From Blattamonas nauphoetae (taxonomy: Eukaryota; Preaxostyla; Oxymonadida): a stretch of DNA of 64,000 nucleotides. Positions 43,801 through 64,000 of the stretch are shown here, piece after piece. The DNA is taken from assembly GCA_033064195.1 (NCBI GenBank), contig JARBJD010000304.1:1-64000 (forward strand), written 5' to 3'. The translations under genes were made by a program, and so were the position numbers. Every line of letters begins with the position of its first letter. The stretch's first letter is position 1. The notes below the pieces were generated by a model. That model was not told the origin of the DNA, did not search any database, and saw nothing but the letters and a program-made list of their open reading frames with translations.

Positions 43801-46800
43801 AGAGCGACCCAGATGTGTGAGAGATCAGCGGACACGACGCGAGTGTGAACGACGACAGTGAGCAGGAGTTCAGCGAAAGAGATCCCGAATGCACAACGAA
43901 GAGTGAGCCAGTGTGAACGGTCTCACCATTCGAGAATGCTGACGAGCTGGCAGAGGTGAACTGGATGCTGTGAAACGTGAGCTCCCCTTCTTTGACTGAG
44001 ATCCCTGAATCGAGAGCGACAGCGACTTTTCGCTGTGTGGTGTCCGATGATCGAACCGTTCGTGTGCCTTCCACTGTCATCACTCGTTCCAACGAGGAAG
44101 GCGACGAGAGAGTGATCACTTCGAGAGAGTTGAGAGAGGCCGATTCCAATGCTGCGTCGAGTGTGGTGCATTTGAACTTCGCTGATCCACAATTCGGATG
44201 ATCGACTGCGGATGAATCAGTGGCATTCACAACAATGACATCCGAAGGGGAGAACAGCCAATACACAATTGATCCGTTCCTCCACTTGTGGTTCTCAGCG
44301 AGAGACGCATCCTCGCCGAGATGTGTGGCGTGTTGATCACTTTGGAAACTGCTGTCCCAATTCTCAGGAATGATTTGTCGTTTGAAGTTGTCGCCTTTGA
44401 GATACAGAAAGATCCCTCTCTCCGACTCTTTCTGAACTGCAGTGAAATTGAGATTCTGAAATATGACATCGCCTGATGTCTCGACGACGATGATTGACGA
44501 ATTGAGAAGAGTCAGATTTCTGAAGGAGCTGTTGGTGATGGAGAAAGGAGCTGATCCAAGTCCTCCGACTTGTGACGGTGTTGGGTGAAAAGAGATCAGT
44601 GGGACGGTGAATGTGACAAGTGGTGAGTTGTAGTCTTTGTTGAAGCGAAAAGAAGAAAGAGAGAGCCCACTCCCGACAGACGAGACGAGAGATTGAGAGT
44701 AAGTGCCTGATTGGATGGTCACCTCACAACTAACCATCTCCAACCAGCTCTCACTGGACATGACTGAGACGAATGTGTGATTGCCGTGATGGTGGAACTT
44801 GAAAGACTGCATTGTGAGACGAGAATCTCCCAGAATGATGAACATGCTCGACCCTTCCGGACCTGTTGTGTTGAGCTTGATGTTCTGACCTCCTCTGAGC
44901 TTCATGTTTTCGTCTTCGAAAGACATCGAGTTGAACGTCGCATTTTCTTTCACAACAACGGAACGGGGATAGACTGTGCCGTTTGGATAGAACAATTGGA
45001 GATATCGAAAGGCATATTCGAGAGTTTTGCAGTCAGAGAACGAAAATCGGCACTGGGAGTCATTGGATCCGAAGCGAGGGTTTATGTTAATTTCGGGATA
45101 AGCGATGAAAGTGGCGATTCGGGTCCATTCATCTTTGTTGTGTTCTTTGGTTATTCCTTCCACTTCGAGGTGAGGCCAGTCACTCCGCGATTCTCCTCCG
45201 CATCCCTTCAGACGATCAGGTCCTTCCTCGCCCAGAACAGATTCCTCAACAAAAACATCGTTTCCGAATGCTGCCGTGTTGTTCTCAAACGCGACACAGA
45301 CTAAATTCACAGGAGTCTTCGCAGTTGTGGTTCCTTTCACACAAATTGCTCCTCCTCTCCCCACATCCACTCCATTCTCATCAGTCGCTGTGGCCCTGCT
45401 GCTCTTGATGAGAGAGTAGAATGCTGAACTGTACTCCGACGAGAGCTGATTGTCTTCGTCCAGTTCCACAAAAAGCACACCACCATGCTGTGCTGAACAA
45501 GAAGAGAATTCAGATCGTCGGATTGTCACGTTGCATGAAGTGAAGAATGCGAAACCACCACGCTGGGCTGAACATGACGAGACTTTCAGAGTTGAGAGGG
45601 TGACATTGGATTGCTTTGCGAACAGAAAACTTCCATCGCATTTCGAGTTGATGTTCGTGATTTGATAATAAGAATCGTGTTCGATTTGAAAAGTACTCAT
45701 TCCTTCGAGATGAAGAAACGGCTGAGTTGTGAGAGAAACAGAGGACACAGGGGTTGTTTTCCAAGTGAAGTTTCCATCATTTGCTGATCGAATGTGTTGG
45801 ACAAAAGAGACACCATTCAGAGTCAGACCAGATGGGATGGTGACACGCCAGAAGAGTGTGGATCGTCCTGCAGAATCGACAAAAGAGTGAGTGAGTGTTT
45901 TATTTGTGAATGTGATTCCAACATAATTCAGCGATATGGACGAAGCTTGATCGATGGAGAAAGCAGTGTTCTTTAGCTCTGAGACGGAAAGGTCAAGACT
46001 ACTTAGTAAAAGTGAGGCGTTGAGAAGACAACAGAATATCTCGTTGCTTGGTTGTGTGATGGTGATTGTACAGCCAGAGTTGAGAGAAGCACTAACTGAT
46101 GCATTCTTGAGAGAGAATGGTGTCATCGTGTCGTTGTACGTTAAACTGGTGATGATGGCTGTGTGGACGTTGTTGTGGAGACGAGAGCCGAGGAGGAACT
46201 GGAGTGTGAGATCAGACAGACGAGATTCGTGAAGCATGTTTGGAGAGGACCAAGCGAGTGGCATGTCGAGTCCGTTGGGTGCAAAGTGGAGGGTGTGAGG
46301 CGGTGGAACGTGTGGATGTGAATCATTGACGAGGAAGGGGAGTTTAGAGAAGGATTCAATCGTTGTGAAATTGAGATTGAGTTGGTCGTCTGAGAACTTT
46401 TTCAGAACAACATCGTCTCCCCTCTCTGCCTCGTTCAGTCCCGTCCCTGCTGAGTTCTGATCAAATTGGCATCCTTCCATTGAAAGGCTGCTTGTTGTGT
46501 TTGTCGACACAATGTCAATCGCTCCTGCTCGACCATTCGATGAGCATCCTCCAAATTTGCAGAATTGGATGGAAATTGATCCACTCGTTCGACCTTCCAC
46601 ACAACTCCCACTTTGCAGCGATCCATCGATAGGTGGTGTGGGAGGGTGGGTGCGAGAGGTACTCAAGAAGACTGTGTCTTTCAGGAACATTGATCCATTT
46701 CCCGACACAATGATCAACGCTGACGAACCAGCGATGAAAGAGAAACGAGAATGGAAGAAGCGAATCGTTCCAGCTGAAAGACAAAACAACTCCTTCGTTC

Positions 46801-49522
46801 GATCCTGTTTGGCATAAACCACAATCGTCTTCAAGGAGAGGTTTCCTTCTTCGTTCATTGAGACAAGTGGACAGGAGGACGAGGAAGGAATGAGAGTAAT
46901 CGAGCGAAGTGTCAGACTGGCACCAGCCTCCACCTCGAGTTCGGCTGTCAACTGTGTTGTGTGAGGACGAGGCGATTCGTCAGACGTCACGTGCACAGTT
47001 TCTGTTCCGTTTCCGACAATCTCGACGTCGGTTTGGATGGAAAGAATTGCGTTTTCGGTGAAAGGTCCATCGGAAAGTGAGAGGATTGTTGAACTGTCTG
47101 GCACAAGTGACTGAATTGCTTGTCGAAGTTTGTCGTTTGTCTCCACTGGATTCCCATCTTCATCTGCATCCACCTTCAGTTTGATCTCATCCTTTGCTTT
47201 TGGAGTCCGAATGACTTCGAAGAGAGGGCATTCTGTGATTGTGTTTCTGTCAGTTGTCACTCCGATCGACCGAGTCGACGTGCAGTTGATCACCGAAGAC
47301 TCGTTGAGGAATGATCGACCGGCCTGGATGAATTCGAAATCAGCCTTTGTTGTCTGTTCGAGCTCAAATCGACAGTCTTCCAAAAGAACTGATCCATTCG
47401 TCGTGAAGACAAGGAAATTCGAGTATGGTCCGAAGACAGTGCAGAAAGTGGATGAAAACGCGTTGAAAGCTGACTCGAATAATTTGAACAGCGTTGAACC
47501 TGAACGTGACAGTTTGCAGTCGTTCATTGTGCACGTGTCCAGAGTGAGAGATGTCTTATAAGAACACTGCATCAACTCATCTTTATGAAAGTCACAACAA
47601 TCGAACAGGCAGCTCTGGAAGATCACGAAACAAGGTCCCCTCGTCTCGAGGAGACGATCTGAATTTGGAATGGGGAGTGTGTGGAAGACGGTTCCGAGAA
47701 AACATAAGTTGGGTGAGTCTTTCGTGGATTGGATTCCGAACTGGTCGAACGTGGAATCGACAAAGAGGAGAGGGTCGTGCGGAGTGACAACATTATACTC
47801 GACAACCAACGAACCGTCTTCAAGATTCGATCGAGTCACCACGAGTGGTTGGGCACCCGAAACTGAAGAGAGACTGAAGAGCGATGCTCTGTTGACGATT
47901 TCGGTGTCAGAGACGCTCAATCCGCCAGATCCGAAGTCACAGTAGCGGATGTTGAGAGAAGAGCCACTTGAATTTCCATCTCCCTGAAGACGGCAGTTGC
48001 TGATGGTGACATGTGAGGATGTGTCTCTCAGATTGTGAATGGCGACGAACCCTCCGTTTTCCTGACGGGATTTCCCTCCGGAAAGAGTGAAGTTGGAGTC
48101 AACAATGGAGTGAGATGCTGATGTGTACGAAATCCCAACCCCTCCACCAAATTGGTCTCTGTTCACTTCATTTCCGGGATACCAATCTTTGAAGGAACAC
48201 GACGAGACGAAAAGAGAGGATCGGATGAATGTGAAGTCTAATCCTTTCAAAAGAATGCATCCCCCAGAAACGGCCCAATAGGAGTCTGGGACAGTCACTG
48301 AGCAGTTGATGAAGGAACAATTATGAACAGTGAGAGATGTTGAATCTGTGGTGAGGATCAACGCTGATCCGCCATCGCGGTTCACGCTTGGGTTGTAGTT
48401 CATGTTCTGGAAGGTGCAGTTGTCGAATGTTGTGGTGGTTGTGATGTTCAGGCGAGAGTGGTTCAGCTTGACATCGAATGTTTTGTTTTTGACGAGATCA
48501 TCGTTGGAGGAGAGTGAGGAAGGGTGGAGATGAGAGGAGACAGGTCGCTCCTCGGATGATGTGCTGCACCATCTGAATGTCGTGTTCGAGCACAGCACGC
48601 TCCCTCCGCTGTTCATGTCCCGCACTGTCGATCCGCTCAGATGGTTGTTGCTCCCCCAAACCGAGCTCCCAATCATTTGTTGACGAAACGAAGGCGAGGC
48701 AGAAGTGACAGAACCAGGAAGCGACGAAACATTGCGAAACGAAATTCCGATGAATGCTGTTGTGACACCAGAAAACATCAAAAATTCCGTTCGGTCCGCT
48801 CCTTCCCCCACTCCAATCCCATCTTGTCCAATGACATGCTGGTTCTCCACATTGCTGTTCAACATTGACAGGAAGATCCGTTCATGTCCCTCCAATCCCC
48901 GAAAATCTGACAAAATTGCCCCCACTCTGCCTGATTTTGAGTGGATCGCACAGCTGGTGAGTGTGATTGTCGTGTCCAGGTCCGAGAACTCCTCCATCCT
49001 CTCGACTGTCATCAATGGTCCCTCACCACTTCGAATGAACTCAATGTGCGATGCACGAACAGTGGATGAACAGATCGAGGCGAATAACACTTCTGAGTTT
49101 GTCGTTTTGTGATCGAGTTCCATTCTCACTTGGGAGAGAGAAAATGTTGAATTTCTGGCAGTGAACAGGCGAAATTGATAAGATTGAAGATTTGACCGTT
49201 GTTGAGAAAGTGAGAATTGTTCATTAGAACTTGGCGATTCGAGAATGATGGACGTGTCGTTCTGCCCATTCAACGACAGAACCGACGATATCACTTCGAA
49301 ATTCAAACATTTTACTTCGGTGTTAGGCAGTTGGAGAATATAATCAGCAGCACAATATTCGTCCTTTCGAACAAACGACCGAAGAAAATCTGTGAGTCCA
49401 ACCGTTGCAGATGGTGGCAATACGCATGATATCGACATAAAAATGAGGAGGATGCACATGGAGGGAAGTAGAATTGTTGGGAAGGGGATTCTCGCCCACG
49501 CTAAGGAAATGGAGATGTTCAA
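40859..49522 (-). CDS. giant beta-helix surface protein with pseudokinase tail, 2,887 codons
   Basis: One uninterrupted frame. The first ATG (49,522) gives a long N terminus; a second in-frame ATG at 49,459 (MCILLIFMSISCVLPP) gives a more typical signal peptide. The ectodomain consists of right-handed beta-helix rungs in several blocks. Later blocks open with a cysteine header (CRFSFSDCKTLEYAF, CGSAKFKCTTLDAAL, CGYRNVWCSSVERAI). A membrane helix lies at about residues 2550-2577, followed by a basic stop-transfer stretch CRRQQKKK. The tail (about 2690-2865) is kinase-like: WSAPE, RLGLVLWELETG and CLSFDPNERPTL are present, but SSHW replaces HRD and there is no DFG or glycine loop. It probably sits at the cell surface as a receptor-like pseudokinase. 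It is the convergent relative of the plus-strand gene. Confidence 0.85.
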   Translation of the reverse strand: MNISISLAWARIPFPTILLPSMCILLIFMSISCVLPPSATVGLTDFLRSFVRKDEYCAADYILQLPNTEVKCLNFEVISSVLSLNGQNDTSIILESPSSNEQFSLSQQRSNLQSYQFRLFTARNSTFSLSQVRMELDHKTTNSEVLFASICSSTVRASHIEFIRSGEGPLMTVERMEEFSDLDTTITLTSCAIHSKSGRVGAILSDFRGLEGHERIFLSMLNSNVENQHVIGQDGIGVGEGADRTEFLMFSGVTTAFIGISFRNVSSLPGSVTSASPSFRQQMIGSSVWGSNNHLSGSTVRDMNSGGSVLCSNTTFRWCSTSSEERPVSSHLHPSSLSSNDDLVKNKTFDVKLNHSRLNITTTTTFDNCTFQNMNYNPSVNRDGGSALILTTDSTSLTVHNCSFINCSVTVPDSYWAVSGGCILLKGLDFTFIRSSLFVSSCSFKDWYPGNEVNRDQFGGGVGISYTSASHSIVDSNFTLSGGKSRQENGGFVAIHNLRDTSSHVTISNCRLQGDGNSSGSSLNIRYCDFGSGGLSVSDTEIVNRASLFSLSSVSGAQPLVVTRSNLEDGSLVVEYNVVTPHDPLLFVDSTFDQFGIQSTKDSPNLCFLGTVFHTLPIPNSDRLLETRGPCFVIFQSCLFDCCDFHKDELMQCSYKTSLTLDTCTMNDCKLSRSGSTLFKLFESAFNAFSSTFCTVFGPYSNFLVFTTNGSVLLEDCRFELEQTTKADFEFIQAGRSFLNESSVINCTSTRSIGVTTDRNTITECPLFEVIRTPKAKDEIKLKVDADEDGNPVETNDKLRQAIQSLVPDSSTILSLSDGPFTENAILSIQTDVEIVGNGTETVHVTSDESPRPHTTQLTAELEVEAGASLTLRSITLIPSSSSCPLVSMNEEGNLSLKTIVVYAKQDRTKELFCLSAGTIRFFHSRFSFIAGSSALIIVSGNGSMFLKDTVFLSTSRTHPPTPPIDGSLQSGSCVEGRTSGSISIQFCKFGGCSSNGRAGAIDIVSTNTTSSLSMEGCQFDQNSAGTGLNEAERGDDVVLKKFSDDQLNLNFTTIESFSKLPFLVNDSHPHVPPPHTLHFAPNGLDMPLAWSSPNMLHESRLSDLTLQFLLGSRLHNNVHTAIITSLTYNDTMTPFSLKNASVSASLNSGCTITITQPSNEIFCCLLNASLLLSSLDLSVSELKNTAFSIDQASSISLNYVGITFTNKTLTHSFVDSAGRSTLFWRVTIPSGLTLNGVSFVQHIRSANDGNFTWKTTPVSSVSLTTQPFLHLEGMSTFQIEHDSYYQITNINSKCDGSFLFAKQSNVTLSTLKVSSCSAQRGGFAFFTSCNVTIRRSEFSSCSAQHGGVLFVELDEDNQLSSEYSSAFYSLIKSSRATATDENGVDVGRGGAICVKGTTTAKTPVNLVCVAFENNTAAFGNDVFVEESVLGEEGPDRLKGCGGESRSDWPHLEVEGITKEHNKDEWTRIATFIAYPEININPRFGSNDSQCRFSFSDCKTLEYAFRYLQLFYPNGTVYPRSVVVKENATFNSMSFEDENMKLRGGQNIKLNTTGPEGSSMFIILGDSRLTMQSFKFHHHGNHTFVSVMSSESWLEMVSCEVTIQSGTYSQSLVSSVGSGLSLSSFRFNKDYNSPLVTFTVPLISFHPTPSQVGGLGSAPFSITNSSFRNLTLLNSSIIVVETSGDVIFQNLNFTAVQKESERGIFLYLKGDNFKRQIIPENWDSSFQSDQHATHLGEDASLAENHKWRNGSIVYWLFSPSDVIVVNATDSSAVDHPNCGSAKFKCTTLDAALESASLNSLEVITLSSPSSLERVMTVEGTRTVRSSDTTQRKVAVALDSGISVKEGELTFHSIQFTSASSSAFSNGETVHTGSLFVVHSGSLSLNSCSLSSFTLASCPLISHTSGSLSLISCELRSIERVSGKGSILSTTMTSEMILTMDGVQLYSMPCSSESPAVLLNFSSITLPSPFPSFSLTNLRFEGFRLEPKDHYVEIVGRNISNFICEGDTRFSGSYSNDSNVDYLWSVDEDLNLSVSLLFYLLPQEGPVRVKRRGFDIDRCGYRNVWCSSVERAISRTTDRVLSEIVILGDSDLSLAVSLSNNVSLTKGEEQAILHASSDGSLMTTPHRSLLMEELSISLPQTQTAEAVIIVAPSGSATLNTIVVRSTGGSDATLVCVTGGRADITDLVMESEMKENTNLMEIIDGKVSVDTLRAENGIALNSSIVWMKAGIVSVSEMSIVGVSSISGCLIHASGTSARVKDIALSHISFSSAPFLFSSLESCSLSNVSITDFSSGALIEGTDVKSLDIESSRFSRPTKIKPEPNEEMSDICWWKDSHITLDNCSSAFHSVEMKHLPQGAVSIVGGELTLTSCTFIDNSPSNADFPSLCRNVLCSDGKVSIETIGGGDGLSSPHHWISTNDCSVEKEDKILPAPFFVPTLSSSKSTSKFDTTQEMYEIVLKGETLIPCGLSLEVFERLALSETEFSEGDHIFVELDPSEVKSWKEDTIELSLHQSSLAELNIKHDLHCRVLFGENGKTDSFSLTGLKGNMSQAGRVVSIVIPIVCSVILLLIFLIVVLVLVCRRQQKKKEEEKPKAMSELDECQIEVKDEEMDVNSTIRPLLNTSDVTLHPSSLNMISNGVDQGQQEVSSFRQQFIEHVDALKCEGEPAVIRVDAKKTLYSALHFEKALALPKTEIRRQLVVGLNRLVQHNPFSDVLTQLSSHWILVDSSGSVCLKLDRNFNETDLTAHQIANRKKMREEDCRWSAPEQIDEEDRGHNKDEKEPHAVPFDPLKASVFRLGLVLWELETGLVPFGELDAVNASRQVKGGQVPLISNWEDTSLASIVEECLSFDPNERPTLSDLQKHFSSSSTNPDPSPIQQQPIASITVIG

Positions 49523-49579
49523 ACACAGAATGGTTTGATCGATCCCAAGTTCACTCTTTCATGGATCGTCTCGGTCTAA

Positions 49580-49587
49580 GTTTATTG
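49580..49587. repeat. 8-bp target-site duplication, left copy (13.5-kb element)
   Basis: GTTTATTG, repeated at 63,088-63,095. It lies 58 bp upstream of the first ATG of the giant minus-strand gene. Confidence 0.8.
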
Positions 49588-49751
49588 GGCATAATCCGAC
49601 CCCGTGCCCCCCTCCGGTATTTTGACAGCAGCTCTGTAACATTGCACTTCGCAGTGATTTTAGAAGCATACATCTATTTGAGACCGGGTTTTCGACTTAC
49701 AGACCAAATCTTAAAAATTACTGCTCGATCAAACTCACCACATGAAAACAC
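49588..49751 (+). repeat. left terminal inverted repeat of the 13.5-kb element
   Basis: About 164 bp, inverted copy at 62,924-63,087. The outer 130 bp match except one base (position 11); differences rise at the inner end. Confidence 0.85.
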
Positions 49752-49759
49752 ACCATTAC

Positions 49760-52600
49760 ACAAATTTCTAGTACCAACAATCACAAATATGAATCATGAG
49801 ATGATACAATGAAACAGAGCAAGAATAAAGTTGAGAATATCGACGTGACGAAAAATGAAGTAAGGCGGTATCGGGAACAACAGGCTGAGGATAGAAAAGC
49901 GATCACGAACAAGAGGAATGCACAAAATGACGTGAATTCCTGTTTTATCGCTTGAAACACGGAAGGCGTGTCCATACAGATGACGTCCGAGTTGTGCCTC
50001 CAAATCGGTGTTTCCTCCGGCTCGAACAATCATAGCTTGGATGCAGTGCGTTCCGAATGGATGGAGACAGATTTCGAAGGCTGTAGATGCTGTTAAGAGG
50101 TTGCCAAATTGGCGGAGAAGATCTTTGCTCGAAAGGTGGATTAAGATCTGCATGGTAAAGTGTCCAAAGCGATCCGAACATCAAAACACAAATTTCGGCC
50201 AAATTTCGGCGAAACTCAGTTGGAGAGTGAGCGAGAGGAGCGAAACGGATTCCGCTGACATTCCCACACGCGCTGCGAGAATGACCATGTCTGCCCGCGT
50301 CCCACGACCGTCTTTGTCCTGTCCTTCGATGCTTGTGAGTACTTCTTGATAAAATCGGCACCATTGCTGGGAAGAGAGGAGTGTTTCGGTTTGATCAACA
50401 ACTGCTGAAAAAGAACGGAATGGGTCTTGAATATCAACGTCAATTGGTGTCCGAAGAGCGTTGAAGTTGTGGGCGTTCACAGGGTGAAGAATGGAGATCG
50501 CTGGAGAGGTGTAGTTCGGAGTGACATGAAATGATGTTTGTTTCAGAATAACGAGCGGATGAAATTGGGGGATTTGTTGCGGAGGGTGCACAAAAGGGAC
50601 TTGAAGGGTATTTTTTGGATGCGGCCAAGATATTGTGTTTGGAGCTGACGAGAAAGAGGGTGTGAACTGTGGAGAGGAGATTTGCAGTTTAGAGTGAGAA
50701 GTGTCTTGCGGGCAATATGGTGTTGTGAATTTGGATCCTTGTTGGGGTGGGAAAACATATTTGGGAGTGGATAAATCATGCAAATGACTAGATTGAAAGT
50801 GGGGATGGGATGTCGAAGGGGACGCTATAGCAAGCTTTGGGTGATGCGATCCCGTCTTGATTCGAGGAACAAAACGTTTTACAACAGTTGGTGCAGTTCC
50901 TGTCGGTTCCGATGTCGATAGGCTTGGCAAAGGAACAATGGTTGGTTGAGGATTGGCGAGTGTTGTTGGCTGAATTTGATGGAGTGTTGGAGTCCTGTTT
51001 CGTTCACCATTGCCCATATCGTCGGTTGGATGTGGAAATATTTGTGTTGTTTCAGAGTCACTCTCCATTTTGCTTGAAGAAGACATCGGTGAAGTGTCCG
51101 TGAACGTCGCTCTCCTGTGGACTCATGATCATCAAACAGTGGTGTACCAGCATCTGAAAAACGATATTGGGAACCGCAAGTGTCATTGTCATTAATTTGA
51201 TTCGGGCTGGCTGAGAAAGATGGGTTGACCGATTTGCGAGGGATGACCTGTTGTTTGTGCGTGTGGTCGGTCTGGATCAACTGTGTCGCTTGAGAATATT
51301 CTCGGTGTCAGGCTGAGAGTTGATAATGTCTGCACATGGTCATAATCTTGTTGACATGGGGAGATTAATCCGTTAATTAAGGCATCGATATCATATGTTT
51401 TCGTGATGGAGTTGAAGAATGGGGGCTCGGAGGATTGGTCTGATAGAGAAGACTGGACATGTGAGCCTGAACACTGTTGAGGATAACCGGGAAAATGGTA
51501 TCCATGTGGGATGTCTTGCCTTGGTAGAGGACTGCTGGCTCAGAAGCTGCCAGGAATGATATTTTCTAGTCAAAGAACACACCTCAGGATCCCAGCCTGA
51601 ACAATGTGCACGGGAGCGATGATTCGATGTGCCTGTTGGTGGGGCTGATGCATTTGCAGATACACACCAAATTGGTACTGTTGGGCAAAGAAGCAGTACG
51701 CGTGCTGTATTAGCGCTTCGGACACTTCTACAGGAACCAGATGACAACTCCCAGGTTGGTGACACCGACTTTGATGAATACGTCCTGATTTGTGAGATGG
51801 ATCGCGACGAGATATAAGAGTATTGTTCGCCGATCATGTTGGGAGAGAAAGCGTGGGTGTCTTCACCTGGAAGGGTGTTTGGCGGTTGATAATCTCCGTT
51901 CTGTAAGTTGGCTTCCAGTTGGAACGATCTGCGTTGAACAGGAAGTAGAGTGTATGACTGCTGGTTGTCCAGTTGTGGGGCTTATTGTTTTAGGTGAGAT
52001 GGAGACTGTTTGATTTGATGTGACGGAAAATGGGATCGGTGGGAACCTGCTCGTTGTTTGGGCTGAAGTGATAGACTGAAAAGAAGAAAATGAGGGAATG
52101 ATGGATGCTGAATACGATTGGTTGTCCGTAGACGTCGAATCCTGGTGGATGGGTGCAGTTGGCAGCATGTTTCACGTTTTTGAACACCCAACCTTGATAC
52201 TCCTTCCACGCATCATGTATTTCTGAGAACAAAGAAGATGAAGCAATGACAGTGAGAGATGAGGCTGAAACAGACCTTGAATTGTGCGGTGCGAAATGAT
52301 AAGCAGAGTTGTTGTATTGAACGGTAGAATCTGGTGTTATTCCCACGTTCGTTCTGAACTGTTGATAAACGAGACAGAAAGCTAGACATACAAATGAGGT
52401 GATTTCGGTTGTCCAATTGTACGAATCCTGGAGTAACATTTGCGACAAGGATGAGCATAAGAGTTCAAAAATGGATGAGGAAGATGATTGACGAAGATGG
52501 TCAACGAAAGATTGTATTTCTTGTGACGTATGATTGATTGAATGGTGGTAGACAGTTCTGGAAGTTCATCCCGCAACCCCAGAATCGCTTGAGGCAGAGA
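49760..52600 (-). pseudogene. Pumilio-type (PUF) gene, truncated, with low-complexity N-terminal part
   Basis: Minus-strand exon-like pieces. 50,153-49,900 contains FEICLHPFGTHCIQAMI and SSDKTGIHVILCIPLV, the spelling of two PUF repeats, which bind single RNA bases in mRNA 3' UTRs. Upstream, 51,086-50,181 is a 301-codon frame rich in P, S, T and Q, as in the N-terminal region of many Pumilio proteins. The two could be joined by a short intron of about 50 bp ending CATGCAG near 50,150. Further minus-strand pieces lie at 51,391-51,837 and 51,863-52,576. Complete PUF domains have eight repeats; here only about two precede the end of the element, so the gene is cut short. Confidence 0.45.
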
Positions 52601-53178
52601 AAAAAATAGGTTGTTTCCTTTCTCATCAGCTGTGTTTTAGCATCGTCAAAGTGTGTTCGGTTTGAATCTTTTGATTTCTAGCTGACTCAGGAGCTTTTAC
52701 AGACAAATGATGCGGCATGAAGGAAATGCCAAGGAAGGCAACTACCAATTACTGTGCAGAGAGTGTTCTGAATGGTTTGGAGTGTGCGCAATACAGTTAC
52801 TTGTTGTACTTTTTTCTTCGATTTCGGTCTTGCCTAGTGCTGTTGTGACCACTTCATACGCTATCGTCAGTTTCGATTCTTTCGTCGAATGAGAATCTCC
52901 GATTTGCGGCTGTATCCATTGAACGAGGGAAACAGGAGGGTGAGTGTTGTGTGAGGCAGGTCCGAATTGTTGAAGGATGATAAGGTTCGTTAGGACACAT
53001 GAGGGAATTGCGTTGATTGGGATGATTGAGTTGAATGTGGTCAGCGCTTGTGAGAACGTTTATCGGACAAGGCTGAGGTATTGTGAAGGGGATGAAGAAA
53101 GGGGATCTTGAAAAAGCAGTGAAAGCGCTGGATATTTTGGTGGTGGAGTGCGTTGAGCATCAGGTGGGTCGATCTAAC

Positions 53179-53865
53179 TCAATGGATGAGGCGTGTCCAG
53201 ATCTCAGGTATTGAGATGAAGAGCAGAAACTTCTGACATGAGCGATGCTTTGACTGCTTCGCATCTCCAAACATGGTTCGGAGCGTGAACAGGACAGGTT
53301 TCACATCAATTTCGTTCACGTGTGGACCACAAGCTTCCACACTTTGATAAATCGAGGCAACTGGCTTGGTCCAGCAGCATGCGAAGAGTTCTTTTAAGAA
53401 GTCCGCAATCATGTTGAAGGGTATGCTGCGGACATTCAAAACGCGATCGCCAAGTTTGATCAATCTCAGATCCCATGTTTACGCTGATCTGGGGAGATAG
53501 TCGCTGAGGTCGGACAGAAGCAAGAGAATAGATCGCATACCAGGCTCAGCAGGATCCATTTTCTCTTGTTTTGACTGGGTCATCTGGAAGGAGTGGACGG
53601 AGTTCAGCTTCTCATATGCATTTCTTCTCGTGTCGATCGCATTCGAGTGTGTGGAGGGTGTGATGGAGAACACGTTGCACGAATTATCCACCAAAATTTT
53701 GAGATATGTCGACAGATGCGACCGAAAGTTTGTCGGCTGGTTCGTCAGGCAAGTGGACCCAAAGAAGTTTGTTTTGCTGTGATGGTACGTGCAGTCCTTC
53801 AGTACGGAAGGGATGAGAGTGAACATTTGATGAAAGTTGGAGAATATCAGCTGTCCGTTTCTCAC
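53179..53865 (-). other. coding-like fragments, unassigned
   Basis: Two adjacent minus-strand frames (53,179-53,463, with FNMIADFLKELFACCW; 53,479-53,865, with PGMRSILLLLSDLSDYL) look protein-coding. The second has a weak likeness to the end of an MIF4G domain. A plus-strand frame (53,593-53,925) overlaps. Between 52,600 and 53,170, and between 53,870 and 54,350, I see nothing I can support. Confidence 0.25.
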
Positions 53866-54352
53866 TGGACAGATCCGCTTCGATTCAGGTGTTCAGCACG
53901 CGCCCGGCCTTTCCCATATGTCTAGCCTGTAGAGACGAGAACGGTGAGAAGACGTTGTCGATTGTGATCTGAAAATAATTGAGGTTCGCCATTGGCAGTT
54001 GTTGGATGGTCGTCGATAAAAAAGAGTTCCGGGTGGTGGAAAAGCAAATTCAGGAGTTGGGGTTTGACGAAAACATCGACCGATCGAGAAGTCCTTGCAG
54101 TGGAATTTTTACTGACAGAGGAAGAGGACGTGTCGTCGATGATATGTTCAAAAGAAAGAAACGTTGCGAGTGTGAACGTTGTGATTGTGTTGTTAAAGAA
54201 AGAATGGCACAGAGAATGACTAGATGAGTGACTAAATCAGTGACGTGTGGTTTGGTGGTGTAAATGCTTCGACTCGTGGATGAGAATGTGGGATGAAGAG
54301 TTGTCTAAATCAATGTGAAGAATGTATGAAAACAAAGAGTGAAACGAGAGAT

Positions 54353-55369
54353 CTATGCGAAATCAGACGCAGACGCGCCATCACCAGCTCCATCTGATCC
54401 ATCCTCCATGATACTGTCCTGCTGGATTTCCCGGAGTTCGGGGATCTCGTCCGAGGAGATGTCATCCTCTTCCTCTCTATCTGATGCATCTGGTTTGTAA
54501 TGTAGTAACAGTCCGACCATCTCCTCGAATGTCAATAGCGAATGGCGTTGTACCAGCCATAGAGCTAAATAATCAACTAAAAATTGTTTTCTTACCCCAT
54601 AACGAGGTAAGAAACCTCTTAACTGCGACCACATACTTTCTACATGATTGGTGCATGCCCCGGTCTCGGGGTCGACGAAATGCCGTTTGTGGCAGACGGT
54701 TTGATGTGTATATCCTAGATCCTTTAAACAGTCGTACGCTTTCCATTCATCACTTAAGATGAGAGTTCCGGGTCGAATTTTTTGCTGAATAATAGGAATT
54801 AGAGTTGCTTTGTTCTGATTTCGGACTATCGTTACAAAACTCCTGCCCTTTCTTCCTCCTTCATTTCTCTCAATTCCACCAAATATCCATATCTGTTTCT
54901 TTGCTCTCCCCCTATGATATTTTTGTCTTCTCCAGATTGCCTCATCGATTTCTACCACTCGCCCTTCCCCACCCAACATTTCTTGCTTTTCGTTCCAGAC
55001 TTGAACACAGACGCACCGAATCAGACTCCGCCAATACCCAATGGTGTCTTCCCCAATATGCAAAAGAACCGAGGTGTGCCGAGCTGTCACACCAGTCCAG
55101 AGAAATAAGAGGATTGCGAGAATTTGACCGATTTCAAGGTTTGTATCTTGAAATGTTGTCCCAGTTAGGACGGAACGTGTTCTGGGGCATCCCGAGCATT
55201 TCCAAAACGGATTTCGGCCAGCCCTGTGTGTTAATCGTGTTGGAATTCTGCATTTACCACAAACGTGAGTGTTTGGGACGTATCGTGAAAGAAACCATTC
55301 ACAAGCCGCTTCAGAATTGAGAAAAATGGGAAGATAAGAAGATTGAGGAGCCTCCCGATCAATTTCCAT
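54353..55369 (-). CDS. IS1595/ISXO2-type (Merlin-like) DDE transposase, 338 aa
   Basis: Complete frame. An N-terminal zinc ribbon has cysteines at 37, 40, 58 and 61 (CGKC, CSGC). The catalytic core follows: VVEIDEAIWRR (Asp142), LILSDEWKAY (Asp207) and NHVESMWSQLRGFL (Glu244, in the NHVE form typical of this class). The acidic C terminus (DDISSDEIPE) is low-complexity. Such transposases cut and paste elements that make 8-9 bp duplications, matching the GTTTATTG repeat around the 13.5-kb element in whose centre it lies. I found no separate terminal repeats close to the gene. With an intact triad and a full-length frame it may be active. Confidence 0.85.
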   Translation of the reverse strand: MEIDREAPQSSYLPIFLNSEAACEWFLSRYVPNTHVCGKCRIPTRLTHRAGRNPFWKCSGCPRTRSVLTGTTFQDTNLEIGQILAILLFLWTGVTARHTSVLLHIGEDTIGYWRSLIRCVCVQVWNEKQEMLGGEGRVVEIDEAIWRRQKYHRGRAKKQIWIFGGIERNEGGRKGRSFVTIVRNQNKATLIPIIQQKIRPGTLILSDEWKAYDCLKDLGYTHQTVCHKRHFVDPETGACTNHVESMWSQLRGFLPRYGVRKQFLVDYLALWLVQRHSLLTFEEMVGLLLHYKPDASDREEEDDISSDEIPELREIQQDSIMEDGSDGAGDGASASDFA

Positions 55370-55487
55370 GAGGATCGACTTGAAGAGAAAAAAAGAGTAT
55401 GGTCGACCCCATGATAAAAAAACCTACGTCCAAACATGGCTCTATTCGATTCGAATTCAACATGAAAGTCTTGAGCAGACCTTAGAA

Positions 55488-55835
55488 ACAGTCTGATCAC
55501 TCGGCGAAAGGTGTGATCAGCTGAACAGACCAAACGAATTTTGGGTCTGATCAACCTCCTATTTTGGAGATTCAAGAACTGACTCATTTTTTTGTCAGAA
55601 CTCATTCAATCGATCATTTCATCACAAGGAATTCCACCGGAATTGCCTCTATTGTTTGTGAGATCGTGAAATTGGCGGGTAAAAAGAGAGAATTGACCAA
55701 AACAGCGCTAAATCGAACTCTTTGATTCCTGTTTCCGCTTCACTTGTTCTCATGGATTACGAACAATTGAGAACCAAGTGAACTGAAGTGTGCAGCGATC
55801 TCGACGTTGTGATCAAAAAAGCTGTGATCAATCAG
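55488..55835. other. TGATCA-rich segment resembling borders of the 3.2-kb insertion
   Basis: At 55,488-55,575 the words TGATCA and TTTTGGGTCTGATCA occur, recalling TTTTGGGTCTGAGATCA at 8,393-8,410. At 55,811-55,830 TGATCAAAAAAGCTGTGATC recalls TGAGATCAAAAAGCTGAGAT at 11,540-11,560. This may be a small relative of that insertion. No gene seen. Confidence 0.25.
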
Positions 55836-55886
55836 ATCTGTATCAGGAGTCTGACGATGGTGACAAGTGGGTGAGACTGTTTGAAA

Positions 55887-57445
55887 TCAGAGAATAGTTC
55901 TTCCAGCAATTTTCGAATCTCGTCTCATCACATAGTCGAGACGGACAATATCCATTCTCTTAGATTCGCTTGAGACATCATTCATCGTTGTTTTCGTGAA
56001 ATAAGACAAACCATTGACAAGCGGGATTCGTCTTGTTTTATAATTCTGATTCTCGAACATTTCTATGATCTCAACAATTCTCTTCAGACACCATTCAACG
56101 TCGTTCTCGAGACATGAGACTAAACTCTGACTCACTTTCCTCGACACAGATGGAATCGACCGTCCATTGTTTTGAGAAATGAGACAGAACACGACACTTT
56201 TTCAGAGTTCGAATTATTTCTGAGATGTTGGAAAACCCCCTTTTTTGTCAAAACCCTATCTCTAGACAAGGGGGGCATAATTTTCGACATCATTCAAAAA
56301 TGGACTGTCGTGGATAGTAAACCAACTTGATCACCCTTGACATTGCTCTAGAAATGATATCAGAAAAGGTGTTCAATCAGGTCATAGACCACTTTGAGAG
56401 GATACTAATTATGAATGGATGAACTCGAACATCTGAATAATGTTAAATAGCAAACCCAAATACAAATTATGGAAACTCCATCCCGTAGTTTTTAGCATTA
56501 TTTGCTAGTCTTAGTGGTGGGTGATTGAAAACCTTCGGATTTTTCCTTTACAATCACGTTTTTCTGATCGGTAAATTCCACTGTCGGCGTTTTCATTCTG
56601 ATTCACATTTCTAAGGATAAACAGGATTCGTCCTAATCCACAGAAAACCACAATCTCGCCTTCAAAAGTTCGGAGACCCGAAAATACCATTCTCCTATAA
56701 TGATTGAGAAACGAATCGTCTTTCGTCTCAGGTTGGTGAAAGATTTGTTTGAACAGCATGATGGTGATTGATGATCGAGCCGTGGAAATAGAGGTCTGTT
56801 TCGTTTCTTGACGGGTCTTCAATTGGGTGTGAACTTTTCATGTCAGAAAAAAGTTCGAAGACAGAACTTCGAATCTCGCCTCATCAAACAGCAGAGATAT
56901 TCATTGTCCATTCTCAAAGATGAGTTTGGAGACACCATTCAACGTCATTCTCTTGTAAACAGGCCAGAGACTGACACAAATCGACTGCCAAAAGTGAAAA
57001 CAAGAGATCACACTCCATCCAATTCTGGAAGTTTGTTGGGTTTTATTCCATTCTGGTTGTCACACGGAGTCACAGAGAGTTTCTTGTCTTGAGCTAGAGA
57101 AGTTGTATAGGACTGGTGAATGATATGCAGGAAGAAAGAACGCGGTTTCTACAAAAGAGAGAAGCAACAATGCACGGCGTGTCATTCATCGGTCATTTTC
57201 TCTGAGACCAGAGAGGACCTTGCTTGTGAGATTGTGGAAAATGTGATAGTGTCCAAAAATGCCTCCTTCAAGAGAACAACACGAGTAGGGACTTCAAAGT
57301 GGATGTGATTCTCATCGAACATCAAAACAAAGACAGATAAGAGAGTTTTTAGAACGCCAAATGGTTCTTTAGAATAGTTTAAACTGAATCTGAACTGAAC
57401 AGACGCAGTTAGCATCTCAAGGTCATTTCTGAATTTCAGTTTCAA
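55887..57445 (-). pseudogene. decayed fragments of a helical-family gene in repeated copies
   Basis: Minus-strand frame 55,887-56,192 reads VSQSLVSCLENDVEWCLKRI. A second, diverged copy of the same stretch lies at 56,870-57,010 (shared DNA words CCATTCAACGTC and TCGAATCTCG). Frames 56,511-56,822 and 57,182-57,445 have similar helical, leucine-rich character. They look like pieces of a host multigene family, perhaps related to the helical proteins at 21-24 kb. No piece is complete. Confidence 0.35.
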
Positions 57446-57838
57446 TTATGCATCCGATCAACACACAAAATAATAAAAGCTCATTCTCATCATTCTGATG
57501 ATTAAAGAGCAATATAGGCTGTCGAGAAGACATTTTTCATTGTCTCGCCTGACTCACTTGTTTGTTTGAGCACATCAATCTCGATTGGACGAGGTTGAAC
57601 CACACCAAAGCCCGAACCACCAAATTGCGTTCTATCATATGGACATGTTCACATTCGATATGCCTTTATTGATTCGTTCTAGCCAGCCATTGACACTCAA
57701 TCACAGATGTGAACAGCATCAAACCTGCCTCTCGAAAATGGAGGACACTGTGTTGATGGTGTAGGGAGGAAAGTCATGTTTTTGCATCTGTATCCTTAGA
57801 GCAACCAGAGTCGGTGTCTTTCCATCTTTCATCATGTT

Positions 57839-60800
57839 TTGTTTATCTCCATTTGTCCTCTTCTTTCGTTATCTCTCACAGCGGATGATAGACTCATCGC
57901 TGATCTTGTGAATCAAGTGGACCCACCTGCAATCAGAAGCACATTATTCACACATGTTTGCATCTGTGAAGGGAACAGAAAGGAATTGAGTGATGAGTCC
58001 CGTTCTTATACCTTCGGGCTCTCATCAATCATCCAGTCGCGAAGATCATCCCCAGTCCAACATGATAGACCTTCGGCAGAAAGAGAATGGAGGTGGAACA
58101 ACCAGAACTTGGAAGAAGTGAGAGAGGACAGAAGGAGGGGACAAGTCTGTGGATTACAGAAACCCCAAACAAGAAACTATGGGTGGCAGTTGCTTTGATC
58201 TCAAGCTGTTGAAGCCAATGAGGATGGGAAATGACTATCAATGAAGAAATGGTGCCCCCACTCATGACTGCCCCTCCTGTGCCTCTCGGCCTACGGATGG
58301 TGTCGCTGTTTGGAGACTAGCAATCAACAAAATAATCAGATCTAACCAAAGCAGACAATGTGATCGCCACCGCAGTGGGCGACGCACAAATTTAAGAACA
58401 AAGCAACACGAGTGGTTACATTGCACAGGCGTACGCTTGGATCCATTTTGTTGTGTCGAGGCACTACATCTTCCAAGATCCCAACTCCCCTGTCCTGTTT
58501 TCACGAACAAACAAGTCATTCAAGCTCATTCCAAGCAAATTAAGCACAATGTCGGCACAGGGTCACTTGGAGTCCCCTTTCCTGGCGTTCACATCTCACG
58601 AAATCAACTGACTGTATCAGCTACTGGGTTTGCTGGGGATCGAATGGGTCATCCGATTCATCAACATGAACATGATTCCTCGGTGTCTGGAACAGGTACA
58701 TCAGTATCTGGAGATGAACGCTCCGATCTTCACCACGATGCACGATCGGAAGATTCAGACAGAAAGGACTTCAATGATGTGAACAGACAGGTGATGGGAA
58801 GGGAATCCTCTGAACCTGCTCAGCCACTCACGATTCTGGGAGTTATGGTGACAGTTTGCGACATGTTCTCGTTGTTGCTGAGAGGAGTGCTTCAAGAACA
58901 ACACAGCCTCCTGACTCGCGCAATTGAAGCATTGTGTGGCCAAATCACTGAGAAGTCGTCGGACTCAGTAGATTCTGGTACTATTCTTGAATTCTCTCCT
59001 CTTTGGGTCGTTGCCCGAATCTCCAAAATCCCCACGAGCCCCGCGACTAGATTCTGTATCCATCGTTCATCTCGGTCTTCCCGTCGCTGGTGGGACGGTT
59101 CGACAACGAAACGTTGGCATATAACCTGCATCCTTCCTTCAACACACTTCTGTGGTCGGAAACTTGGAACACAGCTTGTCGCTGATCATGCGAGTGCACA
59201 ACGCAGCACAGAATGCACAGTGGGGCGGGAGTGTGCAGTTCATGAGAGAAGAATGGAGGAGAGCCAACGAACAAGCATGATTTGCAGAATTGGAGGACGA
59301 TTAGCGAGCTGTCGTTTCTTCTGTTTCTTACTGCACACCTTTCCTCCCATCACCGCTCCATAAACTCTCTTTCAGCGTCACTGATACGTCAGCTTCTCCA
59401 CTCAATCAGTGATTCTTACAGATGAGGGATCGTCGAGCGGAAGAGGACACCGTGATGGACAATAAGAAGAATCGCCAAGATCTGATATTGAGGACACTAT
59501 TCAAACAGTTTTTTCTCTTTTTGAGTTTCATGTCTGTCTTTCTATTCTCAGATCTTGTCGACAATCACATCGACGCAAACGGCGTTCTCACAATCGGGAC
59601 TCTCACTCGACCGGTATTATGACACACTTAGCGATGTTCAAGACACGCTTGGTGATGTTATTGAGGAACAAACAAAAGAATCAGAGGAGATGACCGTTCA
59701 AATTGAAAAGTTGGGAAAGATGCTGCTGAGTGTGGATAAGAAACTGGAAGAGAAACCAGATGACACGGAATTGCTGGGGTTGAAGGAGTAGATGCGTTTG
59801 TTGAACCAACTCCGCACATTGGAGAAGGCCAAAATCATCTAATTATTCTGTCATTTATCCGCTGTCTCAGCAAAACTATCTTCCTCTTTTGCAAAAATTG
59901 CATTCGAATGTGAATCGACAATGCTTGAATGCGCTCGAAATGTTGAATGTTTGTGCTTTTCCTGTGAATCGTTTTCAGGCAGAAAATGTGGAGATCCAAG
60001 ATCTTGTCAACCAAAAGGCGGAAGACGCTGAGACCAAACAAACAGCAGAGCCCCCGCAGGATGCATCGGATGCGAACGACAGTCAGACCCCGAAGCGTCT
60101 TGATAGTGAGCATTCTTCGAAGGACACTTCGGCTGAACCAGAATCGGGTCCTGCGGTCTTTGCTCAACATTCCGGCCCCTCTTCCCATTCGTCCAGCCAC
60201 AGCAGCTCTCCCGTCTTCACTCGGCGTCCTTCTCTTCCTGGATCTGGGACGCCCACGATCCTCCTGCCTGTGAATGCGGATTTGCATGGCTCATCTTCAA
60301 GCCAGTTCTCGCCGTCTGCATCGTCGGGGAGTCTGAGGTCGTTGTCGCAGACTTTGGATCCGAATGACGAACAAGCAGTGCAGTTGAAGGAGCTGAAGGA
60401 AAGAACGGTGTTTCTGGAGAAGTAGCTTCGGATCTATGCAGAGAGAGTGCGATGGATGGAAGAAAGCAAGAAGCAAGGAGAGCGTGAATTGATGACGCTG
60501 AAAGAAGAAATTAGCGAAGCAAACCGACGCGACCGAGAATCGACCAGAATCATCGGGAAGCTGATTGAGGTGGTGCGAACGGGGCAAGATCTGTGTAGAA
60601 AGAAAGTTGTCCACATGAAATCAACAATGATCCGTGAATAGAAGTTCCGAACGTTGTTGTTCAGACAGAGATTTGCGAATGAAGGTCCTGATCCAATCTC
60701 ACCATTTCACGTATCTCCTCGGATCAATCATGGCATTCTCACCCTTCCTGGAACAGATGACTCAATCCATCTTGTCTTCTCCAGCTGCGATTGCCTGCAT

Positions 60801-62520
60801 CGACAGCCTTCTCTTTTTCGAAACTGAACAAATGACGAACCAGCTCATCGGGACTCTCTTGGACGAACTGCCTGTCTCGCTGAAGAAAGGGACAGCTGTT
60901 CAACACCTATACAAGTTGGTGTTTGGACACCTGCGCACAGAAGGGCTCTCCGATGTACTTGATCTGCATGGCAGAGGATGCTCTCTCAGAACATGACATC
61001 CGGTTGAACAGACTCAACACAATTCTGAGATTGGTCGAGAAATGGATCAAAATGGCCAAAACACTTGCCAAACAGCCCCCACCACAGTCAACTCCACGTC
61101 CGAGCCCGTCGGAACGAAAAGCACTTCAAACGCCATTTTTGGCGATCGCGGGAACTGCACCCGTGACTATCCCTCCAACCCTCAAAGCTGAGCAAGAAAT
61201 GATCACACTGGAAGCAAATCAACCCCTCGAACCACCCATTAGATGGCCAAATTGACCGACTTCTCTCCCTTTTTTCTCTCGAAAATGGGATTTCAGTCGA
61301 ACCGACTAAAATACAAGAAGAAGTCAATGTTGAGCACGCTCACAGCAAAAAAGAAGAGAAAGAACGAAAAGAGCGAGAAAACATGCAAAATCATCTTATC
61401 CAAGTTCAGAAAGCAATGGAAACTGATTTCTCTGGCTCGACGTTATATTTTCTAGGTCGCCTCATCTTCAGCATCGGCCAGTCTGTCGGCCTCACCCCAC
61501 ACACCATGCTAACCTCGCTCTCTCACTCCGAAGTAAAGGGAGAGGATGGAGAAGCATCTCTGTCGCCCATCGCAGCGACGATCTTGTCTGACCTGACCTC
61601 CCCAACCCTTCTCGATCTCACTGGCGGCGTTGTATTCACTGCAGTGTGCTCCAAGCGGTTCGTATGCAGTGTGTGGAGCTGAAGGGGAGAGTGGCGGTGA
61701 GACTGCATCACTCCCTGCGGCAACGATGACGCCTTTAGTGAAGAAGACAGAGAAAGAGATGGAAGAGAAGAAGAAGGGGAAGGAGGGAAACAAGGAAGAG
61801 AAGGCCCTTGTTGTTCTGAGAAGGAAGAGGGTTCCCGACTGGTCGGATGGGCAGAACCCGAAAACCCATTGGAAGGCTGGCAGAAAGGACTCGTCGTTTG
61901 GGACTACCCGTTCGAAGTCTATTTGGAAGCATCGGCGCCTCAACCTCCATCCACTTCTGATCCAGACGAGTCTGATCTCTTCTCTTATCAACTCGATCCC
62001 ACTCCAACTCACGTCATCTCCAATCCCATCACCATCTCCCTTCACGTCATCTTCAGACCACCTCAATCTCTCGCCCCAACTCCAATACATTCTCCCATCT
62101 TTCCCTTCTTCATTTCCAACGTTGTCACTTCCTCTGTTCGAATTTACATTCATCTCGTCTCTGCTTCAATTCATCTCATCAACTTTCTTTGGCGAACCAG
62201 CACATTCGCAACCGATCCGCAACTCCCCTCGCTTCGACCATCCACCCAATCCTTCATGTTTGGGCCGTCTTCACTTCATCTCATCGTGGCATTCTTCCAT
62301 CGACTCGCCTCTGCCTTGTCTACTCTTCTTCTGACAATCACTTCGCCCACATTCGTTGGAGTTGAGATCGCAGCAGACGACGCAAACGACAGGTCTCTCT
62401 CCGAACAAGAAAACGAGAAGAAAGGGAAGATTCGAAAAAGAAGAAGGATGCAAAGAAGGAGCTGGAAGCAAACAAACTGGAAGCATCGAAAACTCTCAAC
62501 AAGGACAAGCGAGTGACACG
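57839..62520 (+). other. cargo block of spliced, host-like coding pieces
   Basis: Plus-strand exon-like pieces of unidentified gene(s): 58,437-59,363 (SGTGTSVSGDERSD, then LLLRGVLQEQHSLL), 59,555-59,791 (coiled coil, TVQIEKLGKMLLSV), 59,889-60,425 (S/P-rich), 60,447-60,641 (coiled coil, RELMTLKEEISEANRR), 60,634-61,255 (helical, LVFGHLRTEGL and LNRLNTILRLVEKW), and 61,383-62,516 (K/E/S-rich). A likely intron ends TATTCTCAG at about 59,550. The order could be one large coiled-coil protein gene with introns, or joined fragments. I recognise no family. Confidence 0.35.
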
Positions 62521-62923
62521 GAAGGACCGCAGTTTGGGATTGTCTGAAATAGCAAAAGATCTCCTCAATCATGTCTTAAAATTCCAAAAAAGAAACAAAA
62601 ATGCATTGAAATAAACACCTATAGACCGTTTTCTCCATAGTAGGAGTCTTGATCACTTGTTTTCGGCATCGTTGTCTCGAAGAAAAGATCGCGCCTTATT
62701 CTCTGTGAAATAGTGTCTCACCCTTGTATCACGCAACAGACGCTTCTCTCTGTTGAAATATTGAAGAGAAAATGAACAAAAGATCAGGAGACACTTCATT
62801 TCTTGATTGATGGAGGATTTAAGTCATCACACCGTTTGTGGAGCTTGTGACCAGTATGAGATCATTTTACTCTAAAAATACCATTCATGGATTCTTGTTT
62901 TCCTTGATTGAAAAGAGAAGGAT

Positions 62924-63087
62924 GAGTTTTCATGTGATAAGTTTGATCGAACAGTAATTTTTAAGATTTGGTCTGTAAGTCGAAAACCCGGTCTCAAATA
63001 GATGTATGCTTCTAAAATCACTGCGAAGTGCAATGTTACAGAGCTGCTGTCAAAATACCGGAGGGGGGCACGGGGTAGGATTATGCC
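62924..63087 (-). repeat. right terminal inverted repeat of the 13.5-kb element
   Basis: Inverted copy of 49,588-49,751, ending GGATTATGCC. Confidence 0.85.
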
Positions 63088-63095
63088 GTTTATTG
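63088..63095. repeat. 8-bp target-site duplication, right copy (13.5-kb element)
   Basis: GTTTATTG, identical to 49,580-49,587. Confidence 0.8.
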
Positions 63096-63792
63096 TGTTT
63101 TCTTCTTCCTTATGGACGAATATTTTCTCTAAATAGACCCAAACTGAATGAAGTATGGTATTTTAAAACAAGTGGGTATATTTGAATAGAACTATGGGAA
63201 ATTTGAAATAACTAAGTTATTTTGAAATACGCCACTTATTTCAGAAAGGCCAAACTTATTTTAAATAAGGCACCATAACATTTTTTGAACTCCCTTTCGT
63301 CATTATCTAATTCAAAGATATCTCAAAAGCGTACCAGAAGTGACAAAATGTGATGAGAACGATGGAAAATGTTGAAATGTTCGAAATTAATCACTTTGGT
63401 GGCATCACTTCAGATCCGCCCCACTTCACTTTTCATTCCTTCTGAGTCTTTTTCTAACAGGAATGGACACTGTTCTCTGTCATGTTTTGATCAGCTACAG
63501 ATTGCACATATGCAGGACACATGAAAAAAGAAAAACTGTACAGCGAAATGAGAAATCGTGAAAAATAGAACTGTTCTCCAACCACGACGCTCCTTCGGAA
63601 TGAATGAGGTCAATCTGGTGATCAGAATGGTCAACTTTCAGAGTTTGATGTCCACATGGACTGTCAGCAGATGACCAGCCTATTCACAATGAGCACTGAG
63701 CAGGTTTGGTGTGAGATGTGATGGCTTTGCATGGGCAGCAGAGTGTTTGATTTGACGACGTATTTGTTCTCCATCGGAGCCTTCACGCCCAA
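63096..63792. other. spacer without a gene
   Basis: About 700 bp that would originally have been the upstream region of the giant minus-strand gene before the 13.5-kb insertion. It contains AT-rich words (TTATTT repeats at 63,170-63,260) and nothing else I can support. Confidence 0.5.
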
Positions 63793-64000
63793 CTATTCTT
63801 TGAGGCCATCGTCCTCCGATGGTTGGAACAGTTGAGGAATTGTTCTAAAAGCGGTGTCCTGCAAACCAACCAACACTTTGTCGTCGTCGTCATCTCCTCC
63901 ACTCAGCCCTTCCTCGCTCGACACAAGATCGTTCGAATTGTGTCTTTTCTTCTTCTCCGATTTTTCCTGTTCGAGCAGTTCCTTCTGTTCTCGCTCGAAT
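63793..64000 (-). CDS. 3' end of a gene, partial (68 codons in window)
   Basis: Minus-strand frame open to the window edge and ending in TAG at 63,793. The visible C terminus starts with a charged helix (EQKELLEQEKSEKKKRH), then an acidic run GGDDDDD, and ends QLFQPSEDDGLKE. A lysine-rich then acidic tail is common in nuclear and RNA-processing proteins, but I cannot name the family. Confidence 0.45.
   Translation of the reverse strand, partial: FEREQKELLEQEKSEKKKRHNSNDLVSSEEGLSGGDDDDDKVLVGLQDTAFRTIPQLFQPSEDDGLKE

Follow-up and report, generated by a model that had tools for sequence, protein, structure and literature searches.

The stretch of Blattamonas nauphoetae DNA analysed here (the window, 64,000 nt; positions 1 to 64,000 of contig JARBJD010000304.1) very probably contains a cut-and-paste transposon of the Merlin superfamily, one of a family of ~12-14 kb elements that carry degenerate pieces of host loci and descend from a mosaic ancestor that formed once and then spread. 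The window element occupies positions 49588-63087 and measures 13,500 bp with both inverted arms counted in. Relatives were sought in the window's own genome (88,311,006 bases, 837 contigs), whose assembly is given as 879 contigs, 88,537,989 bp, and 44.96% GC in the available part of its description (PMC10703272). The window contig is called C229 below, and other C numbers denote other contigs of the same genome. The borders and core of the element are made up of the following features.

49580-49587, no strand: left target-site duplication (TSD), GTTTATTG, directly outside the arm
49588-49757, plus strand: left terminal inverted repeat (TIR), 170 nt, begins GGCATAATCC
54353-55423, minus strand: Merlin/IS1595 transposase open reading frame (ORF), a 356-residue frame without stops
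55424-58230, no strand: central non-coding backbone, matching other copies in BLAST blocks of 91-94% and one of 73%, the rest unaligned
62918-63087, minus strand: right TIR, 170 nt
63088-63095, no strand: right TSD, GTTTATTG, a perfect 8-bp match to the left one

The two 170-nt arms are 96% complementary and lie 13,160 nt apart, and at both ends the repeat starts with GGCATAATCC, so that each arm begins GG. No second inverted pair of at least 25 nt was found within 48000-64000 (seed 14). A chance origin is excluded by recurrence, since this end sequence is present on eight contigs besides C229 and three more sites have perfect 8-bp TSDs of their own, each different. The earlier note on this DNA had described a TIR-bounded unit of 13.5 kb with an 8-bp duplication, and the arms, the GTTTATTG pair, and recurrence elsewhere agree with it. 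Its inverted repeats stand as well, while its figures of 164 bp for the repeats and 13,500 bp between them give way to 170 nt and to a 13,500-bp length that includes the arms.

Membership of the Merlin/IS1595 group, also claimed in that note, is borne out by the transposase and by the ends. The only Pfam family that the transposase ORF matches at E 1e-3 is PF12762 (DDE_Tnp_IS1595, E 3.1e-21), and it also matches the NCBIfam model NF033547 of the IS1595 family (E 4.9e-30). Residues picked by eye as the catalytic triad, D160, D225, and E262, are separated by 64 and 36 residues, giving the pattern DD36E. Merlin elements have TIRs of 24-462 bp with a terminal 5'-GG and a TSD of 8 or 9 bp, according to the available text of PMC8101967. 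The window element combines the DDE_Tnp_IS1595 domain and the DDE triad with 170-nt TIRs that start 5'-GG and an 8-bp TSD, and on all sequence features tested it classes as a Merlin. Merlin elements are usually 1-4 kb long, compared with ~12-14 kb (21 kb with nested insertions) in the window family. The closest named relatives of the transposase come from Monocercomonoides exilis and are 40-55% identical to it. More than 100 Merlin copies in at least 7 families, with TIRs mostly of 23-29 bp and 8-bp TSDs, are described from Monocercomonoides, which is an oxymonad, in the available part of the same paper (PMC8101967). The window element shares with these the transposase domain, the triad, the 5'-GG TIRs, the 8-bp TSDs, and the oxymonad host group; it differs from them in its 170-nt TIRs and its host gene fragments. 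Around the transposases of other Merlin families on C482 and C261, the repeats gave no clear TIR pair. On C261, positions 14012-16989 hold two apparently identical IS1595-type transposase ORFs, inverted and ~1 kb apart.

The family to which the element belongs occupies six insertion sites. With the left repeat as query, the best 40 of 100 candidates were scored; 15 of them matched at 88-100% and 25 at 75-79%. The 15 long-end matches are spread over nine contigs (C229, C234, C452, C717, C337, C38, C22, C2, and C66), which comparison of the flanks reduces to the six sites. The flank AGAATATC is common to C234 and C452, the flank AAGTATAG is common to C717, C337, and C38 (the last two show one end each), and C229, C22, C2, and C66 represent one separate site each. 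Wherever both ends are intact, which is the case at four sites, the element is framed by a perfect 8-bp TSD (GTTTATTG, AGAATATC, AAGTATAG, and GAGCTTCC). The genome search for the end sequence, a check proposed in the earlier note, has in this way returned large inverted pairs with their own 8-bp TSDs at several sites. Copies measure 13,500 bp on C229, 13,715 bp on C717, 12,005 bp on C452, 11,831 bp on C234, 13,604 bp on C2, and 21,028 bp on C22, the last being enlarged by two nested insertions of ~5 and 3.2 kb (C22:87273-95796), the second of which has termini TTACCCTGAGC and an 8-bp duplication GGCACAGG. All nine contigs carry the shared cargo as far as each copy reaches, and the copies differ from one another by internal deletions.

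Sites without the insertion are available for the copy on C22. Joined together, its flanks are found with 100% identity over 401 bp, and with a single copy of the TSD, at C787:6059-6459 and C22:73343-73743; C570 matches at 97%. These empty sites are paralogous copies of a repeated target rather than alleles, and since the flanks are identical to them, the C22 copy inserted precisely and recently. Recent spread of the family as a whole is indicated by this identity and by the five main-lineage copies (those on C22, C452, C717, C2, and C234), whose compared regions, repeats aside, are no more than 1.2% apart.

Between the repeats and the transposase, in both orientations, lies the cargo, which is made up of the following pieces.

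49916-51365, minus strand: Pumilio-like (PUF) gene pieces, 89-92% to C200:64342-69864
51366-52783, minus strand: cargo of unassigned origin
52784-54022, minus strand: Nckap1-like fragment 1, residues 4-420 of the C201 ORF, 56-62% amino-acid identity, four in-frame stops
58231-59208, plus strand: Nckap1-like fragment 2, residues 354-694 of the C201 ORF, 58-78% amino-acid identity, five in-frame stops
59501-60602, plus strand: gene pieces of C825/C103/C257 type (two ORFs in C825), 95% to C825, broken by stops
60592-60969, plus strand: neighbouring pieces of a C825 multigene family, 86-94%, with internal deletions relative to C825
60961-62561, plus strand: C154 gene pieces, 81-96%, with frameshifts and stops

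As judged from these matches, the cargo consists of pieces of at least four host loci, namely a Pumilio-like gene, an Nckap1-like gene, the C825-type cluster, and the C154 gene. The host gene on C200 has a Pumilio repeat (PF00806, E 4e-7) and the C201 ORF is Nckap1-like (PF09735, E 1e-10). The C825 gene cluster has relatives at C103, C257, C320, and others, and the C154 host stretch is open over 933 residues without a Pfam match. About 172 bp of the C154-type cargo, at 62379-62550, match at least ten other places at 84-86% and seem to be a dispersed repeat or a gene family. The pieces extend past single coding frames, which suggests that capture took place at the DNA level. A single Nckap1 gene cut in two was considered and rejected, as the fragments overlap at residues 354-420 and differ in their identity to C201; together with their opposite orientation, this points to two captures or to pieces from two paralogues. 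The PUF piece has an in-frame TGA where the ORF on C200 has leucine, and the alternative genetic code that this TGA brought to mind was rejected because the leucine in C200 marks it as a nonsense change. With relatives at C200, C201, C825, and C154, the host-gene pieces seen in the earlier note are confirmed. Its view that the unit had picked them up itself holds for capture as such; sister copies share the cargo, so the unit did not gather it alone.

The window copy has a further peculiarity, in that different parts of it stand at very different distances from the other copies. It was compared with the five main-lineage copies, gaps uncounted; the comparison did not take in C38, C337, and C66, on which one end or some of the element is missing. 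Among the five, the compared regions differ by at most 1.2% (transposase at most 0.4%, left repeat at most 0.6%), except for the repeat at the 63087 end, which differs by 1.8-8.2%. The distance of the window copy from the five is 0.6-2.6% in the cargo arms, 9.1-12.4% in the repeats, and 13.5-13.6% in the transposase ORF, where the comparison of C229 with C22 shows patches from 3 to 27% divergent. Values of 16% over the entire centre and 38% over 53200-54352 also count stretches that are misaligned or not homologous. Divergence jumps abruptly close to the inner edge of each repeat, around 58233-58257, and at 53135, a point followed by 179 identical positions. The cargo of unassigned origin follows the slow pattern, with 51520-52785 being 0.9-1.0% different from the five. 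Nckap1 piece 1 runs uninterrupted in C229 and is truncated in C452, while piece 2 reaches further in C452. Degenerate cargo is expected to evolve at least as fast as the non-coding backbone, and arms and backbone of the window copy therefore differ in history. Polishing error is an unlikely source of the divergence. We infer homologous exchange between two Merlin backbones as the origin of the window copy, in which main-lineage cargo arms would have been joined to a diverged lineage's ends and centre. Going one step further, the ends plus transposase and the captured cargo might be separable modules, with the same cargo joined by recombination to two long-diverged Merlin backbones, a proposal to which we give somewhat less than an even chance. 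If true, modules are exchanged in the evolution of a eukaryotic cut-and-paste transposon, in much the way known from mobile elements of bacteria.

Several observations weigh against the picture of a Merlin family with captured cargo and a mosaic history. The copy on C2 has no TSD and one damaged terminus, and of the C66 copy a single end is seen. Searches of the genome for an empty site found none for the C234/C452 copy and none for the window copy, which has a many-copy repeat as its right flank. The cargo at 51366-52783 has only short matches of 74-80% outside the family (51401-51519 was in no query outside the family). With regard to the mosaic, main-lineage copies also vary at the 63087-end repeat, by as much as 8.2%, and the search for a cargo-free element with the window-copy backbone gave only the known copies and short fragments among the best 40 of 130 candidates. 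Finally, the transposase is broken on C234, C717, C337, C2, and C38, five of the seven other contigs that reach it, which weakens the case for movement in cis.

These stops and frame breaks lend some weight to an alternative in which the cargo unit is non-autonomous, its central transposase being dead or a passenger, and another Merlin acts in trans, as one must for a miniature inverted-repeat transposable element (MITE) of 412 bp. MITEs with matching termini of 23-24 bp have indeed moved. Set against this are the stop-free frames in C229 and C22 (the frame on C452 is open as well, with a different end), the values of dS 0.45, dN 0.10, and dN/dS 0.23 between the two, which support a working enzyme in the past of these copies, and the retention of the transposase in the centre on all eight contigs that reach it. 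We consider non-autonomy unlikely, if still a serious contender. The claim in the earlier note that the unit is mobilised by its own transposase is sustained as far as the intact frame goes, and movement by that enzyme is only partly shown, with five of the seven other frames broken.

In the genome, a 23-bp pattern of the element end, with up to 3 mismatches allowed, matches 98 times forward and 91 times in reverse (0 and 0 for a reversed-pattern control). Many of these, among the first 100 places listed, belong to the 412-bp MITE family. Five fetched copies are 99-100% alike, there are 20 further places, and an 8-bp TSD is present at all five loci fetched, so the family has apparently been active recently. 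At one end the MITE resembles the long repeat at 79% over 112 bp, and at the other it matches over 24 bp. It is a relative that does not explain the long elements, because their repeats are 88-100% like the query and their cargo is shared on nine contigs; at the same time, it demonstrates that ends of this kind can be moved in trans.

Selection or uneven mutation, acting without recombination, might also produce a pattern like that of the window copy. Parts of a transposon do evolve at different speeds, and the 63087-end repeat varies by 1.8-8.2% among the other five copies. This explanation is rather improbable, in that most of the slowly changing sequence is broken pseudogenes (0.6-2.6%), while rapid change extends to non-coding DNA (most BLAST blocks at 6-9%), to the two TIRs (9-12%), and to synonymous sites (the dS of 0.45). 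It also sits poorly with the near-uniform transposase and left repeat of the other five and with the abrupt shifts near the repeat edges and at 53135. Exchange between two backbones accounts better for the window copy.

That the cargo might consist of working spliced genes, carried for a function, is very improbable. The pieces do come from coding regions, they are ~97-99% identical between copies, and one of them, a C825 family piece at 60694-60969, has no stop over 92 residues; yet a stop or frameshift disrupts each of the other window-copy pieces for which a host ORF was compared, the Nckap1 pieces are duplicated, incomplete, overlapping, and oppositely oriented, and internal deletions distinguish the copies. 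The intron-bearing cargo described in the earlier note is likewise not upheld, as in-frame stops and frameshifts run through the pieces, and those parent stretches that were read consist mostly of open frames. Presence/absence blocks of ~116-134 bp do occur between copies. Introns or introner elements were tried as their explanation and set aside: the block at 60592-60602 looks like a deletion between 11-bp repeats of C825, with no GT-AG excision. Another block, of 134 bp at ~59294-59427, is found only in C229, where introns are possible, and C200 has a block of 240 bp. An assembly error, or a large element mimicked by two unrelated MITE ends, can be dismissed as extremely improbable in spite of the abundance of the 412-bp MITE with its similar termini, given long ends of at least 88% to the query with the same cargo at six sites, TSDs that match at all four testable sites, a C22 copy with empty sites identical over 401 bp, and a MITE end only ~79% like the repeat. 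Both possibilities had been named in the earlier note as refuting conditions, and for the family these results already rule them out.

With a degenerate-cargo Merlin thus favoured, its mechanism may be sketched as follows. The DD36E transposase, encoded by the central gene or supplied by a sister copy, would cut at the ~165-bp inverted repeats that start GGCATAATCC, and insertion would create the 8-bp duplication. Host fragments of at least four loci would have come to lie in both orientations between repeats and transposase, nearly all of them degenerating, and the mosaic ancestor was probably formed a single time before it spread. Template switching in interrupted gap repair is one route of capture and may have operated here. 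Alternatively, neighbouring insertions could have been re-mobilised together with the DNA between them. The latter has been proposed for Pack-TYPE elements in the available text of PMC8903248. At C200, the captured stretch has a MITE-type end 2.0 kb away; this is compatible with re-mobilisation, and one case proves nothing.

The best-documented cases of gene capture by TIR transposons come from plants and from non-autonomous elements. Pack-TYPE elements of plants (Pack-MULE, Pack-CACTA, and others), as described in the available parts of PMC8903248, PMC13317346, and PMC6431247, also hold several gene fragments between TIRs and are mobilised with TSDs. They are described as non-autonomous and from plants in the part of PMC8903248 available; the window family is Merlin, and two of its copies have a stop-free transposase frame. 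The window element accordingly works like a Pack-TYPE element in its host fragments and departs from one, which would lack its own transposase, in keeping such a frame. According to the accessible text of a review on giant transposons (PMC6431247), the Pack-MULEs in Jiang et al. 2004 were all at most 7 kb long, and the window family is longer than that upper size. Enlarged CACTA elements of the red alga Chondrus (16-20 kb), cited in the same text, are likewise oversized TIR transposons outside land plants; they carry 4-5 ORFs, whereas the extra DNA of the window element is mostly pseudogene cargo (PMC6431247).

The window element departs from Polintons in its 8-bp TSD and its Merlin transposase. 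Polinton/Maverick elements share its large size and long TIRs and have protein-primed PolB, integrase, and capsid genes. Pfam searches of 21 of the 37 listed element ORFs of at least 100 residues gave no Polinton-type polymerase, integrase, or capsid family above cut-off, and a match to gag_pre-integrs was weak (E 0.047, 13.9 bits against a cut-off of 28.4). The word Merlin is absent from the available text of the giant-transposon review (PMC6431247) and of the plant Pack-TYPE survey (PMC8903248), and a word search of PMC8101967 for capture or host genes returned a single reference title. No gene-capturing Merlin was among the listed literature matches in open-licence PMC papers. The earlier note had called an element of this size and cargo undescribed for Merlin; the large size and the cargo stand, and such gene capture is known from Pack-TYPE elements. 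The window family would extend gene shuffling by transposons to another superfamily and another eukaryotic branch, and its unequal cargo-host divergences and two backbones offer a natural test of capture and exchange.

Several smaller features deserve mention. The host Pumilio-like gene on C200 is interrupted by a 3,816-bp insertion (C200:65099-68914) that is absent from the element. Its inverted termini are 12 bp long (CAGGGCTTTCCA) and its duplication 8 bp (CTGTGGAG); it also contains tandem repeats and an ORF, without a Pfam match, resembling by eye an ABC transporter piece. The insertion is possibly another gene-piece-bearing transposon, presumably hAT-like from its features. Just inside the left repeat of the window element, 83 bp at 49766-49848 match 24 other genome places at 89-90% and form a dispersed repeat. 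The right flank at 63132-63345 is a repeat found at many genome places with 88-100% identity. To the left of the element, a 2,899-residue open frame (40859-49558, minus strand) has a C-terminal kinase-like domain and its first ATG at 49459; the element lies ~120-130 bp upstream of this ATG and may affect that gene. Elsewhere in the window, two adjoining ORFs at 15121-17493 (minus strand), with no Pfam match at E 1e-3, by eye resemble parts of a Polinton-type DNA polymerase.

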